This document shows positions 2,243 through 32,424 of a DNA stretch of 37,708 bases, piece by piece. This stretch comes from Pseudomonadales bacterium (GTDB lineage Bacteria > Pseudomonadota > Gammaproteobacteria > Pseudomonadales > Azotimanducaceae): NCBI GenBank assembly GCA_029246605.1, contig JAQWMV010000062.1, positions 1 to 37,708 of the forward strand, written 5' to 3'. Under the pieces are notes generated by a model. It ran no database searches. It worked only from the letters and a program-made list of their open reading frames with translations, and was not told where the DNA came from. Within the stretch, counting starts at the first letter, position 1, and every line of letters begins with the position of its first letter. A program made the translations under genes and the position numbers.

Positions 2243-3538
2243 ATGGAACACCTCACACTAACACCCATCGAATCAATCTCTGGCGAGATTAATTTGCCAG
2301 GCTCCAAAAGCCTGACTAATCGCGCCCTGCTACTCGCCGCATTGGCGAAAGGTGAGACGCGCATTACCAATCCGCTAGCGAGCGATGACACAGCACGCAT
2401 GATTGAAGCCCTGCAGCAATCAGGTGTTTCAACGATTATGAATGACAAGCACATCAACGTAGTCGGCAATGCTGGTCTTTTCGCGACGCCTTCCAATAGT
2501 GCATTTTTCCTGGGTAATGCCGGCACTGCAATCAGACCACTCACAGCAATCCTAAGTCTAATTCCTGGGCAATTTGAGGTTGATGGTGATCAATACATGC
2601 GGGAAAGACCCATTGCACATCTTTGCGACGCGCTGATGCAACTCGGCGCAGACATTAAATATCTTGGTAAAGAAGGATACCCTCCATTTTCATTAACAGG
2701 AGGTCAAATCTCCGGTGGTGATGTCAACATCGCTGGCAATATTTCCAGTCAATACTTAACCGCATTACTGCTAGCGCTGCCCTTGGCAAAAAATGACAGC
2801 ATTATTAATGTCATTGGTGACCAGGTATCTAAACCGTATCTTGATATCACCATGAATATCATGAACCAATTTGGTGTTAGCGTTGAACATGATAACTACC
2901 AGCATTTCTCAATACCCGGCTCCCAACACTATGTATCCCCTGGAGATTACCTGGTTGAGTGAGATGCTTCATCTGCATCCTATTTCTATGCAGCAGCTGC
3001 CATTTCTGGCACGATCACTGTTCACGGACTGTGCAAAGACTCTGTTCAAGGTGATATCCAATTTCTGGATACCATCGAGGCAATGGGTGCGAAGATTCAT
3101 CGCGACTTACAATCGATTACTGTTACTAAGGGCGAACTAAACGGCATCGACGTAGATCTAAACCATATTCCCGATGCTGCAATGACAATCGCGGTTATGG
3201 CGTTGTTTGCAAAAGGCACGACGCGAATTCGTAATGTTTACAACTGGCGCGTGAAGGAAACTAATAGGATGTATGCCATGGAAACGGAACTGCGCAAGCT
3301 TGGTGCCACCGTCCTGACTACCGAAGACTCAATCACCATCACACCTCCGGCAAGCATACAGTCCACAACCATTGACACCTATGGAGATCATCGCATCGCC
3401 ATGGGTTTCTCACTCGCCGCACTAGGCAATCAGCCAATTACCATTAACGATCCGGACTGTACAAAAAAGACCTTTCCAGATTACTTCGATGTTTTTAAGT
3501 CGGTCTGTCATTTTGCGGACTCCAATCCCAGCAGGTGA
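2243..3538 (+). pseudogene. aroA: 3-phosphoshikimate 1-carboxyvinyltransferase (EPSP synthase), interrupted by one in-frame TGA at 2960-2962
   Basis: NLPGSKSLTNRALLLAALAKG, FLGNAGTAIRPLTA and DGDQYMRERPIAHL before the stop; [13 protein letters not shown]...VQGDIQF and [14 protein letters not shown] after it. Both halves share frame 2; the stop replaces the Gly of [11 protein letters not shown]. Confidence 0.9.
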
Positions 3539-5477: not shown

Positions 5478-6695
5478 ATGCTCCAAGTCTTGGGACTAAC
5501 AGATAATCCAGAAGCATTATTTAGCGCTCATGAAGGGTCGCTTGATTTGTTGCAATTCGACTACCTGCATGACCAATCCTACATTGATCAACCTGCGCTG
5601 CTGCTCACGGTCATTTGCGAAAACAATCATCAGAACCAGCGCTGCGTCATAGCACCCCATGGTGATCATCATTTCGAAGACATGTCTTTGGATGCCATCG
5701 CAGACCGGCTGCGTGTTCCTATACTCGACTTTAGATCCGCGATTTCACTATCAGCTCATCCGGTTGAAAAGCCCTGGGGAAAGGAAATCTGGTACACAGG
5801 AATAGAACAACGCGGTGTGTGTTCCATGGGAGGAGTACCGATCCCTTGGGTGCTCGATTGCTTTGGGCAAATACTAAGTGGTTATAACTATACTCCACCG
5901 ATACTCCTAAAAATCCTGGAACCTCTGGCACAGGATGTTATCGGTGATTTATATTTTGAGGCCCATGCTCATAAGACCGAGGTTTATATTGTCACAGCCG
6001 TAGACAAAGATTCCTGGCCTGATGGTATTGGCAAAATTCGTTTTGGTTTTTCCGGCAGCAAAAAAAGTCAGTTCCCCAACACCAATGCATTTGCTAACGC
6101 GTACCTTCAGGCTGTCGATGCCTATCGCGAAGTTAGAACAACGATTGACCAATCAGACCATGCTGATCAACAACTGCGCGACCGAGAGGTGATGTTGCGT
6201 GCGGAAATGGAATCGTTTACATCACTACGCGACCTTCGCGTTGGAGATGTCGTACAAGTACCACCACTAACCCCACATTCTCTACAGCACGGTGTGACCG
6301 TCGTTGAATTCCAGACACCTCACTATGAACGCTATATCCTGTCATTCGCACAGAAAGTACTGACACAGGATCATTGGGATACCGAGTCAGCACTACCTCT
6401 GTTGAATTTTGCGACGGATACACCGCTGTGCACGATTTCCGATGACATCATCGCCGACTTTGATGATTTTTTGGTAAATCGGATAAAGCTTTCCCCAGGG
6501 GAAAGCTTTATTGTCGAAGAACAACGCTATTGCATTGTAATGCCAATTATCGGTGAAGTGACGTTAGCAAATATCCTGGTAGCAACGGGATCCGCCTTCT
6601 ACCTCCCAAAAAGCAGTGAACGCGTCATTAGCAATGACGGTTCTACCGACAGTCTGGTGTTATTGGCAATGCCTCAGGAAGGCAGCAGGCTTTGA
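5478..6695 (+). CDS. Mannose-6-phosphate isomerase class I-like / cupin-fold protein
   Basis: 405 aa with [67 protein letters not shown] and [10 protein letters not shown]. The family call is from motif pattern only. Confidence 0.55.
6482..6512. repeat. 29-bp near-perfect palindrome inside the cupin CDS (14-bp arms, 1-nt centre, 6483-6511)
   Basis: ATAAAGCTTTCCCC-A-GGGGAAAGCTTTAT; the arms are exact reverse complements. Confidence 0.9.
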
Positions 6696-27249: not shown

Positions 27250-27970
27250 AGAAGAAGGTCAACCTTTAATTGAGCATTTAATCGAATTGCGCAACAGGAT
27301 TCTGCACGCACTCGTTGCCATTTTGATCGTATTTTTGCCGCTCTTCTATTTCGCCAACGATCTCTACACCTTCATCTCACGACCATTGAGACAGTTCCTG
27401 CCCGAAGGCGCGACGATGATTGCAACTGAGGTTGCCTCACCGTTTCTCACGCCATTTAAGCTTAGCCTGGTGTTGGCAATCTTTATCGCGATTCCCTATA
27501 TCCTGCACCAAATCTGGAGTTTCATTGCACCCGGACTTTATTCTAACGAACGACGAGTTGCCCTACCCCTACTCACTTCCAGCATTCTTCTATTCTATGC
27601 AGGTATCGCATTCGCTTTTTATGTCGTTTTTCCGCTGGTTTTTGGATTCTTTACCAGCGTTGCACCGGAAGGTGTCACTATCATGACGGACATCAACCGT
27701 TACCTCGATTTTGTCCTGAAGTTATTCTTTGCTTTTGGTATCGCCTTCGAGATTCCTATCGCAACCATGCTGCTTATATGGACTGGTGCCACCGACGCGC
27801 AAAGTCTAAAGCGCAAACGCCCCTACGTTATCATCGGCTGTTTCGTCGTTGGTATGCTGCTGACACCTCCCGATGTTATCTCACAAATATTACTCGCTCT
27901 ACCCATGTGGCTTCTGTTCGAACTGGGCATTATTTTCTCCGGTATCATTCGCCCACAAATCAAGCACTAA
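27224..27970 (+). CDS. tatC: Sec-independent translocase TatC
   Basis: [24 protein letters not shown]; multi-[33 protein letters not shown] at 27224 or 27215. Confidence 0.96.
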
Positions 27971-28401
27971 CTTTCAAGCATAAATGTAACCGGCCCATCG
28001 TTTACTAATGAGACCTGCATATCTGCTCCAAACACACCAGACGCCGTCTCACATTGCTCGCCTGCTCTCTCGACAAAACTCTCATACAAACGACGTGCAG
28101 TATACGGATACGCGGCACTAGAAAATGAGGGACGTGTACCTTTTTTGGTATCGGCTACCAAGGTAAACTGCGACACAATCAGGAGAGCACCACCGACGTC
28201 CAACAAACTAAGATTCATATGCTGATCAGCGTCAGGAAACACACGGTAATGTAGCGCTTTGTTTAACAGTCGTTCGACATCCGACTCAGTATCTTCCTTC
28301 ACGAACCCAAGCAGCAACAAAATACCATTCTCTATCCGGCCAACCGCTTCGCCAGAAACAGAAACCGACGCCCGCTTCACTCGCTGGATTAAGGCACGCA
28401 T
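27967..28401 (-). CDS. dtd: D-aminoacyl-tRNA deacylase
   Basis: [34 protein letters not shown]. Confidence 0.96.
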   Translation of the reverse strand: MRALIQRVKRASVSVSGEAVGRIENGILLLLGFVKEDTESDVERLLNKALHYRVFPDADQHMNLSLLDVGGALLIVSQFTLVADTKKGTRPSFSSAAYPYTARRLYESFVERAGEQCETASGVFGADMQVSLVNDGPVTFMLES

Positions 28402-29367
28402 TTATACGTCGAAATCGGACTCGAACCTAAGCGCCATGTCCCGTGTAGCTCGGATAAGGGCATCAATAATCGCCGGTTCTGTTGCGGAATGTCCCGCCTC
28501 CCGAATAATGAATAATTGGGAATTTGGCCAGGCCGCGTGTAAAGCGTAGGCATTATCAAGAGGACTCACCGTATCGAAACGACCATGCACAATAATGCAT
28601 GGGATGTTGCCGAGCACAGATGCTTGCCCAATAATCTGATCCTCTTCAAGGAAAAATTGGTTTACAAGGTAGTGGGTACCTATGCGACATCGCGCCAAAG
28701 AACGGTGGGATTTCGATAAATGCGTGATAAGTCTTTGATTGGGATGCAACGTAGAACAGTGCGCTTCCCATGCTGAAAAAGCCTTGGCGGCTGTCATCCT
28801 GGCCAAGTCATTCGATCCAGTAATTAGTTCATAGTACGCTTTCGGAATATCATCACGGCTATCCGGGGCAATGGGGGCAACATAGTCCTCCCAGTGATCG
28901 GGATAAAATCGACTTGCACCATCCTGGTACAGCCAATCGATGTCTTTCTGCCTACCTAGAATAACGCCCCGTAACACAAGCCCAAGCACTCTATCTGGAT
29001 AGGTTTCAGCATAGTTAAGCGACAAGGTAGCACCCCAACCACCACCAAACACTACCCAACGATCAATCCCTAAATAGTCTCTGATCTTCTCGATATCCTC
29101 GATCAGATCGGAAGTCTTATTATTCTCAAGCTCACCGTGTGGTGTAGACCTACCTGCACCACGCTGATCAAAAAGCACGATGCGGTATTTTTCAGGATTA
29201 AAAAAACATCGACTGTCGAATTCACAACCGGAACCGGGCCCACCATGGACAAACAGCACAGGGATCCCTTCTGGCGTGCCGCTCTCATCAATATACAATT
29301 CGTGAATGTCATCGACACTGAGTTGATGCCGGGCATAGGGTTTAATTTCCGGATACAGTGTGAACAT
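28402..29367 (-). CDS. pip: Proline iminopeptidase-family alpha/beta hydrolase with Ser-to-Gly at the nucleophile position
   Basis: VLFVHGGPGSGC, LFDQRGAGRSTPHG, nucleophile elbow VVFGGGWGATLSL (family GGSWG), HGRFDTVSP (Asp), REAGHSATEP (His). Confidence 0.9.
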   Translation of the reverse strand: MFTLYPEIKPYARHQLSVDDIHELYIDESGTPEGIPVLFVHGGPGSGCEFDSRCFFNPEKYRIVLFDQRGAGRSTPHGELENNKTSDLIEDIEKIRDYLGIDRWVVFGGGWGATLSLNYAETYPDRVLGLVLRGVILGRQKDIDWLYQDGASRFYPDHWEDYVAPIAPDSRDDIPKAYYELITGSNDLARMTAAKAFSAWEAHCSTLHPNQRLITHLSKSHRSLARCRIGTHYLVNQFFLEEDQIIGQASVLGNIPCIIVHGRFDTVSPLDNAYALHAAWPNSQLFIIREAGHSATEPAIIDALIRATRDMALRFESDFDV

Positions 29368-29369
29368 GC

Positions 29370-31190
29370 CTAGGGCCTTGCTCTATTCACTTGCTTTCGC
29401 TCATTATCCGCCAGGATTTTCTTACGAATACGAATATGATTTGGGGTTATCTCCACCAGTTCATCATCGTTAACGAACTCTATAGCCTGTTCCAATGAAT
29501 GCTTGATCGGTGCAGCTAAAATAATGCTTTCATCCGTTCCCGCAGCTCGGATATTAGTCAACTGCTTACCCTTCAAGGGATTTACAGTAAGATCGTTTGT
29601 ACGCTGGTGTTCTCCTATGACCATCCCCTCATACACCTCTTCTCCTGGCGTTAGGAATAGTCTACCCCTTGCCTGAAGATTGAAAAGTGCAAATGCCAGA
29701 CATTTCCCCTGATTCATTGCAATCAGCACACCACTTGAGCGCTGCGCCACTTCCTGTGTCACTACTGGAGCATAGTGCGAAAATACACTGCTCATGATGC
29801 CCGAGCCTGACGTTAGTGTGAGAAAATGGGAGCGAAAGCCAATCAGACCTCGAGTCGGCACCAGGTATTCTACCCGTACGCGGCCACTGCCATCAGGTAC
29901 CATATCAACCAAGGTCGCTTTTCTAATACCCAGCTCTTGCATCACCGCACCTTGCTGCGCATCCTCAACATCTACGACCAGGTTTTCAAAGGGTTCCTCT
30001 CTACCCTGGTCGGTGTCTTTAAAAATAACCTCTGGCCTCGACACACCAAGTTCATAGCCTTCACGTCGCATGTTTTCGATTAACACCGCCAAATGTAATT
30101 CACCGCGACCTGACACTTTAAATCTATCTGCGCTGTTCGTTGCTTCAACCCGTAGCGCGACATTGTGGAGTGCTTCCTGCTCTAGTCTCTCTTTGATGTT
30201 GCGACTGGTAACGAAACGTCCATCCAGGCCTGCAAAAGGTGAATCGTTAACCTGAAAAGTCATCGAGATGGTTGGTTCATCTACCTCAAGCGGCGGTAAC
30301 GCTTCTACCTGACCCGGTGTGCACAAGGTGTCAGATATTTGTAAATTCTCAATGCCTGACACACATACGATGTCGCCTGCCCTGGCCTTCTTAACCTCTA
30401 CACGTTCCAGACCACGATAGTCCAATACCTGTAAAACCTTTCCTTTCCTTTCCTTACCTTCCTTATCGACAACAATAACCTGGTCACCTGAATTCAGCTC
30501 ACCACTCTTAATTCTGCCTAAACCAATTACACCAACGTAACTGTTGTAATCCAAAGCACTTATCTGCATTTGCAGTGGACCATCGACGATGACATCAGGA
30601 CCTGGCACTTTGTCGATTATTGTTTGCACCAGACAACCAAGAGAATCTTCAATGTTGTCCATGGACAACCCCGCCTGACCGTTCAGCGCAGAGCCGTAAA
30701 CTACCGGAAAGTCCAACTGTTCATTACTCGCACCCAACTGATCAAAGAGCTCAAAGACCTCATCGACAACCCAGTCCGAACGGGCACCATCGCGATCAAT
30801 CTTGTTGATCATGACGATTGGCTTCAGATTGTTCTCGAACGCTTTTTTAGTCACAAATCGGGTCTGCGGCATAGGCCCGTCTACCGCGTCAACCAGCAGC
30901 AGAACCGAGTCAACCATGGATAGAATCCGCTCTACCTCACCGCCGAAGTCAGCGTGACCAGGTGTATCGATGATATTGATTCTATGATCGTGCCAATTGA
31001 TTGCTGTGTTCTTAGCAAGAATGGTGATACCACGTTCGCGCTCAATATCATTAGAATCCATGAGGCGCTCTTTTTGATCTTCGCCACGATGCAAAGCGCC
31101 GGCTTCATACAAAAGCTTGTCAATTAACGTGGTCTTGCCATGGTCAACATGGGCAATAATGGCAATATTGCGAAGTTCTTGTCTGCGCAT
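29370..31190 (-). CDS. typA: GTP-binding protein TypA/BipA
   Basis: [83 protein letters not shown]. The track ORF extends to 31286. Confidence 0.97.
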
Positions 31191-31373
31191 AGGAGCCTTC
31201 AGCGGTCCGAAGCGGCCACCGCTTTCGCGGAGCAAACCAATTTTCGGTTTAGATTCATGTTTGATAAGAGCCTGGTAGGTTGGCAAAGCGCGGCATTATA
31301 CCTAAACCATTGCTCCTTGCAGTGTTATAATTCAAGTTCTCTGATCTTCAGTTTTCTTTCTATTTGTCAAATT

Positions 31374-32424
31374 ATGTCTCATACCCCTAAAGCGGTTGTG
31401 CTTATCTCCGGTGGCCTGGATTCCTTGCTTGCCGCAAAAGTTGTCATGGACCAGGGCGTCCACGTCGAAGGTATTAACTTTTATACTGGTTTTTGTGTGG
31501 AAGGCCATACCCATGCCATCCGTCAGAAGGACAAACAAAAAAGCCAAACGAAACAACGCGCTTTGGGTAGCTGAACAACTCGGCATCAAACTACATATCA
31601 TTGAAGTGATTGAAGAATACAAAGACGTAGTTATCAATCCTAAACACGGCTATGGACAGAACCTAAACCCGTGCCTCGACTGCAAGATATTCATGGTGAA
31701 CAAAGCGCAGGCCTGGGCATGGATGGAGGAAAATCAGTTTGATTTCATTATCACCGGAGAAGTCATCGGGCAACGGCCAAAATCACAACGTCGCGAAACC
31801 ATGCCTGTTATCGCAAGGGAATCAGGAGCCGAGGACCGATTGTTACGTCCCCTGTGTGCAAAACACCTGCCGATGACACTGCCGGAACGCGAGGGCTGGG
31901 TCGACCGGGAAGCAATGCTTGATTTTCATGGACGCAATCGCAAGCCTCAAATTGCCCTCGCCCATAAACTGGGATTCACCGATTTTGCGCAACCTGCGGG
32001 AGGATGCTGTTTTCTCACTGATCAGTCCTATTCATCAAAATTACAGGACCTCTGGACCACCGGCGGTAAGCGTGAATATGAAATCGATGACATTATGCTG
32101 CTAAAGGTGGAACGTCATATACGGCCCAAACCAAATTTCAAACTCATTGTTGGTCGCGAGGAAGGTGAGAATAATTACCTGTCCGGTTACCGACGCGACT
32201 TCACCAGTATCAGCACAGTGTCCCACAAGGGTCCGTTAGTTCTGGTTGATGGATCACCAAGCGAAGACGACCTAAAACTTGCCGCAGAAATAACGGCGCG
32301 TTTTAGCCAGGGTAGAGACGCAAGTGACGTAGACGTGGAAATCACCACCAAAGATGGCCAATGCCAACGCCTGACCGTGCAACCAATGGCGACAACAGCC
32401 ATCGAGCAATCGTGGTATGTCTAG
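31374..32424 (+). pseudogene. MnmA/ThiI-like PP-loop sulfurtransferase family, disrupted by a 1-nt frameshift in A6 at 31537-31542
   Basis: N-terminal PP-loop AVVLISGGLDSLLAAKVV in frame 0; continuation KKAKRNNALWVAEQLGIKLHII...NPCLDCKIFM...GGCCFLTDQSYSSKL...IVGREEGEN in frame 1. Confidence 0.8.

Follow-up and report, generated by a model that had tools for sequence, protein, structure and literature searches.

A clade of prolyl aminopeptidase homologues without the catalytic serine: candidate pseudoenzymes encoded between typA and dtd in a family of Pseudomonadales

Results

The window analysed here, a 37,708-nucleotide stretch of Pseudomonadales DNA (contig JAQWMV010000062.1), carries an intact gene of the monomeric prolyl aminopeptidase (Pip) family in which the catalytic serine is replaced by glycine. 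The loss of the catalytic residue is common to the whole clade to which the protein belongs (49/49, support 100), and the clade is under purifying selection like that of its active relatives, as would be expected of a pseudoenzyme. We consider it probable that the gene encodes a conserved pseudoenzyme, most likely a non-hydrolytic binding protein.

By descent the protein belongs to the prolyl aminopeptidase family (TIGR01249 / S33.001). It matches the TIGR01249 equivalog model over its full length (residues 9-311) at 369 bits, above the curated cutoff of 260, and it has the same fold, its predicted structure (pLDDT 92.5) giving TM scores of 0.93/0.96 to the Xanthomonas Pip 1azw. The same enzyme was the best solved relative by phmmer, aligned over residues 1-310 and ungapped at the nucleophile elbow, where Gly110 of the window protein pairs with the catalytic Ser110 of 1azw (VFGG-S-WG). 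The catalytic Ser of 1qtr and 5yhp likewise lies opposite Gly110 in phmmer alignments. The elbow that is FGGSWG in known Pips is FGGGWG here, and VFGGGWGATLSL is the protein reading around it. A preliminary description of this DNA had proposed an open frame of 321 codons, a Ser-to-Gly replacement, and retention of the Asp (HGRFD) and His (EAGH); all of these were confirmed (Table 1), and alignment to characterised Pips placed the catalytic Ser position on Gly110 and not elsewhere. No second Pip of the TIGR01249-type family was found in the source genome, which is 2.8 Mb in size and 97% complete.

Table 1. Coordinates in the window of the Ser-less pip gene, its immediate neighbours and the residues discussed in the text
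Feature	Position	Strand	Evidence or conservation
typA/bipA, directly upstream of pip	29370..31286	-	TIGR01394, 900 bits
Pip-family ORF, Ser-less	28402..29367	-	321 aa, ATG start, open throughout
HGGPG oxyanion-hole loop, retained in window	29233..29247	-	second position drifts to Ser/Ala in clade
Codon 110, GGT (Gly), nucleophile position	29038..29040	-	Gly/Ala in 49/49 family orthologues
Codon 201, Glu retained (Serratia Glu204)	28765..28767	-	48/49 in clade
Codon 212, Arg gained, cap helix	28732..28734	-	48/49 in clade
Codon 226, Arg gained, cap helix	28690..28692	-	48/49 in clade; hydrophobic in Ser-types
Codon 230, Gly replacing amine-anchoring Glu (Serratia Glu232, Xanthomonas Glu230)	28678..28680	-	alignment
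Codon 265, triad Asp retained (Xanthomonas Asp266)	28573..28575	-	49/49 in clade
Codon 293, triad His retained (Xanthomonas His294)	28489..28491	-	49/49 in clade
dtd, D-aminoacyl-tRNA deacylase, directly downstream of pip	27967..28401	-	TIGR00256, 184 bits

Loss of the serine across the family

The gene was seen in 49 of the 207 genomes of the window's family (f1), in a single copy each and with no internal stops. At position 110, 48 of these orthologues have Gly and one has Ala, and none has Ser. Among distinct sequences the Gly110 codons are GGC (20), GGA (12), GGG (8) and GGT (8), and the Ser-less proteins of the family form one clade in the tree with a support of 100. Omega was estimated with the iqtree codon model, run in fast mode and with dS partly saturated. 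The window's genus gave 0.047 and a set of 22 clade members 0.062, compared with 0.043, 0.061 and 0.044 in three clades of Ser-types; pairs with dS < 1 gave 0.02-0.31. Constraint on the window's Pip clade is thus about as strong as on its catalytic relatives.

These results decide between several readings offered in the preliminary description. An erroneous base call, or decay that set in very recently and only in the window's genome, would need just a single transition (AGT to GGT), and two further genes in the window look broken, so local errors or decay do exist. However, Ser is absent from 49/49 family orthologues with varied codons, and the clade is old and constrained; we give this explanation almost no credence. 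Early decay fares no better, since every family orthologue is without Ser, all four Gly codons are used and omega is close to 0.05. What is strongly supported by the clade-wide loss and the low omega (about 0.05-0.06 in the clade, like that of Ser-bearing Pips) is the remaining suggestion of a retained pseudoenzyme or repurposed hydrolase. Three findings presented below go beyond that description: Glu230 and other pocket residues have been replaced, the gene lies in a typA-pip-dtd cluster, and Ala-type losses occurred independently elsewhere.

The two broken genes lie elsewhere in the window. The aroA gene (EPSP synthase; 2243-3538, plus strand) contains an in-frame TGA that splits it into two ORFs, one of 239 and one of 151 aa, corresponding to the two parts of TIGR01356/PF00275. 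Either the assembly is wrong at this site, or a gene that is usually important has acquired a genuine nonsense mutation. At 31140-32424 (plus strand), the gene for a PP-loop protein (ThiI/MnmA-like) whose C-terminal domain is NFACT-R_2, encoded by relatives at 60-73% identity, appears frameshifted near a six-A run at about 31530. Between the aroA region and the malate dehydrogenase and glutamate synthase genes is an ORF of 405 aa (5478-6695, plus strand) with no Pfam or NCBIfam match.

Changes in the pocket and the cap

Residues were compared, in Xanthomonas numbering, between 147 distinct Ser-bearing sequences and the 49 of the clade; the sets were divided on residue 110, and Ser110 accordingly stands at 147/147 against 0/49. 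Glu230 falls from 140/147 to 0/49 (Gly 36, Ala 12, Ser 1), the pocket residue Cys269 from 146/147 to 25/49 (Ser, Thr or Ala in the others), Gly42 of the oxyanion loop from 147/147 to 20/49 and Phe234 from 143/147 to 26/49. In the Serratia Pip, Glu204 and Glu232 anchor the substrate amino group, Glu204 being the main recognition Glu, and roles of Phe139, Tyr149 and Phe236 have also been described (PMC9147577). The RIENHY of known enzymes is RIGTHY in the window protein, and the second Glu that anchors the substrate amine has thus also been lost; of the two anchoring residues the clade keeps Glu201, while Glu230 is absent in all. His41, Gly43, Pro44, Gly45, Gly112, Arg133, Glu201, Asp266 and His294 are invariant or nearly so in both sets, with the catalytic Asp and His present in 49/49 of the clade, and 65 of the 96 positions with 95% conservation in the Ser set are still conserved in the clade.

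The cap has become basic. Besides the arginines gained at codons 212 and 226, Arg222 is fixed in the clade (49/49), and the mean charge of segment 208-240 rises from +0.1 in Ser-types to +3.9. Positions 222, 226 and 230 recur at intervals of four residues along a single predicted helix (220-235), a spacing by which they should share the face that bore Glu230, and Arg222 and Arg226 may point into the pocket.

Without Ser110, the Ser-His-Asp aminopeptidase mechanism and its acyl-enzyme are impossible by established S33 chemistry, and we infer that the protein does not have this activity. It might still be a prolyl aminopeptidase that uses another nucleophile or water, as Glu201, the equivalent of Serratia Glu204 (PMC9147577), is kept and Phe136 and Tyr147 are present in most clade members. 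However, no clade member has kept Glu230, the pocket varies at Cys269 and Phe234, and the window protein has Ile at 136 and Leu at 234. Ser113, considered as a substitute nucleophile, is no stand-in because it is not conserved, being Ala in the window and in 15/49 members. We regard retention of the original activity as very unlikely.

Gene neighbourhood

The typA, pip and dtd genes all lie on one strand, separated by very short intergenic distances in the window, with a convergent tatC beyond; the true typA start is probably about 37 codons inside its ORF. Among 35 family loci with flanks, dtd is next in 35/35 and typA precedes pip in 32/35. The Ser-type Marinobacter also has typA-pip-dtd, so the order predates the loss of Ser and is thereby weak evidence of a role in translation. 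Two congeners, G004 and G005, have dtd straight after typA; a short spacer lies between the two genes and no remnant of pip is left, which indicates that the gene can be lost cleanly.

The short distances in the window and the conserved gene order, together with the many family members that do not have the gene, would fit a passive remnant, that is, a functionless protein whose ORF is retained solely for translational coupling of typA and dtd. Yet coupling would leave the amino-acid sequence unconstrained, whereas omega is near 0.05 and the 65/96 positions are kept, and the two congeners manage with typA and dtd alone. There is, we believe, little to recommend such an explanation.

Independent losses elsewhere

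The nucleophile has also been lost outside the window's family. Three genomes read from a second Pseudomonadales family (f2) encode Pips with Ala110 and Gln230, and a third (f32) has one protein with Ala110, Gln230 and Leu201, whose sister protein in f32 has kept Ser110 but already has Gln230 and Ser269. A single clade of all Ser-less Pseudomonadales proteins was rejected (AU p 0.004), and the best tree requires three changes. In another gammaproteobacterial order, the Pip of G809 (L239/L245) has Ala110, Ala42 and Thr269 with Glu230 kept; typA is adjacent, and no dtd was found in the 9 kb stretch read. Such proteins are rare: when 369 genomes from across the class were sampled, a Gly/Ala-type motif was seen in only two, that of the window and G809, and the Ser-type motif was seen in 62 of 151 genomes. 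The f32 intermediate suggests that drift in substrate recognition can come before loss of the nucleophile; for joint loss of Ser110 with Glu230 or Cys269 there were only three independent pairs, too few for statistical power.

Some Ser-type Pips also have Cys or Ser at 230 in place of the second anchoring Glu (L025 and L216 in f7; L029, L206 and L207 in f6; L200 in f8), and these possibly have an altered substrate specificity.

Discussion

We suggest that two residues were lost from the ancestral Pip of the window's family, namely the nucleophile, where Ser110 became Gly, and the second of the glutamates anchoring the substrate N-terminus (Glu230 to Gly/Ala), with the pocket being reshaped and the cap helices made basic. 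The comparison with Ser-types shows that the fold and the His-Asp pair, together with the HxGPG loop, Arg133 and Glu201, meanwhile stayed under strong purifying selection. The cap-covered pocket might then hold a ligand that is not cleaved, or the cap might contact a partner, and Pip and the translation factors TypA/BipA and Dtd would presumably be co-produced. The gained basic face hints at an anionic ligand or partner. A counterpoint to a pseudoenzyme role is that the gene is absent from 158 of the 207 family genomes and so is dispensable in many lineages.

That His-Asp is invariant is just as compatible with residual or new catalysis. The main alternative to a binding protein is an enzyme that has been repurposed for a different reaction, such as water-mediated hydrolysis of an activated substrate or a lyase/isomerase-type reaction, with His-Asp serving as general base and HxGPG as anion hole; its substrate would be new and possibly anionic. 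The invariance of His294 and Asp266 (49/49) and of HxGPG positions 41 and 43-45 is in keeping with this idea, as is the consistent change of the pocket (Glu230 lost, Cys269 to Ser/Thr, Arg226 gained). On the other hand, over half of the clade members have Ser or Ala in place of Gly42 in the oxyanion loop, the neighbouring genes suggest no substrate, and His-Asp may have been retained for structural reasons, since 65 of the 96 conserved positions survive in any case. We consider a new catalytic role somewhat unlikely and favour a non-hydrolytic binding protein.

A broader and distinctly more doubtful proposal is that Pips linked to typA have repeatedly and independently turned non-hydrolytic, and that the f1 proteins, with their basic cap, bind an anionic ligand (for example a nucleotide, or the end of a tRNA or nascent chain) and act alongside TypA/BipA and Dtd in translation stress or editing. 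If true, this would be a new class of translation-linked alpha/beta-hydrolase pseudoenzyme.

To our knowledge, conserved bacterial pseudoenzymes with clear sequence signatures have seldom been described. The curated equivalog model names the Ser-less Pips prolyl aminopeptidase, and a wrong function is thereby assigned across a bacterial family. Moreover, intact Ser-types, a Ser-bearing intermediate with pocket losses, independent Ala-types, the Gly clade and congeners without the gene make up a natural series, in which the order of pseudoenzyme evolution is directly testable and which may bring to light a non-proteolytic function of the widespread typA-pip-dtd cluster. In the literature collection searched we found no paper on a Pip pseudoenzyme, which is not proof that there is none, and a search on bipA with proline iminopeptidase found nothing relevant.

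With prolyl aminopeptidase S33.001 (MEROPS; Xanthomonas 1azw, Serratia 1qtr and 1wm1) the window protein has in common its family, fold, Asp, His, HxGPG, Arg133 and Glu201; in contrast to these enzymes, its clade has neither the nucleophile Ser nor Glu230, Cys269 is often replaced and the cap is basic. Pseudoenzymes as such are already known, including bacterial peptidase ones (PMC6426788). Bacterial pseudo-orthocaspases, for example, belong to a peptidase family with conserved variants that are without catalytic residues (PMC6426788), although their fold and family are unrelated to those of the window Pip. The best-studied analogue, resembling the window Pip in kind but not in membership, is DPP10, an S9B pseudo-peptidase and Kv4 channel subunit in which Ser has become Gly while His and Asp are kept; it is inactive, and exchanging the Gly for Ser did not revive activity (PMC4350108). 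Both are homologues of post-proline-type peptidases with Gly in the nucleophile elbow and a retained His-Asp pair, but DPP10 is eukaryotic and membrane-bound, belongs to family S9B and has kept both Glu, whereas the window Pip has lost Glu230. Further parallels are the Ala-type Pips of f2, f32 and G809, which resemble the window protein in the loss of Ser110, the change of Cys269 to Ser/Thr and the adjacent typA, and differ from it in having Ala rather than Gly, in having Gln230 (Glu230 in G809) and, in f2 and f32, in not having gained Arg226.
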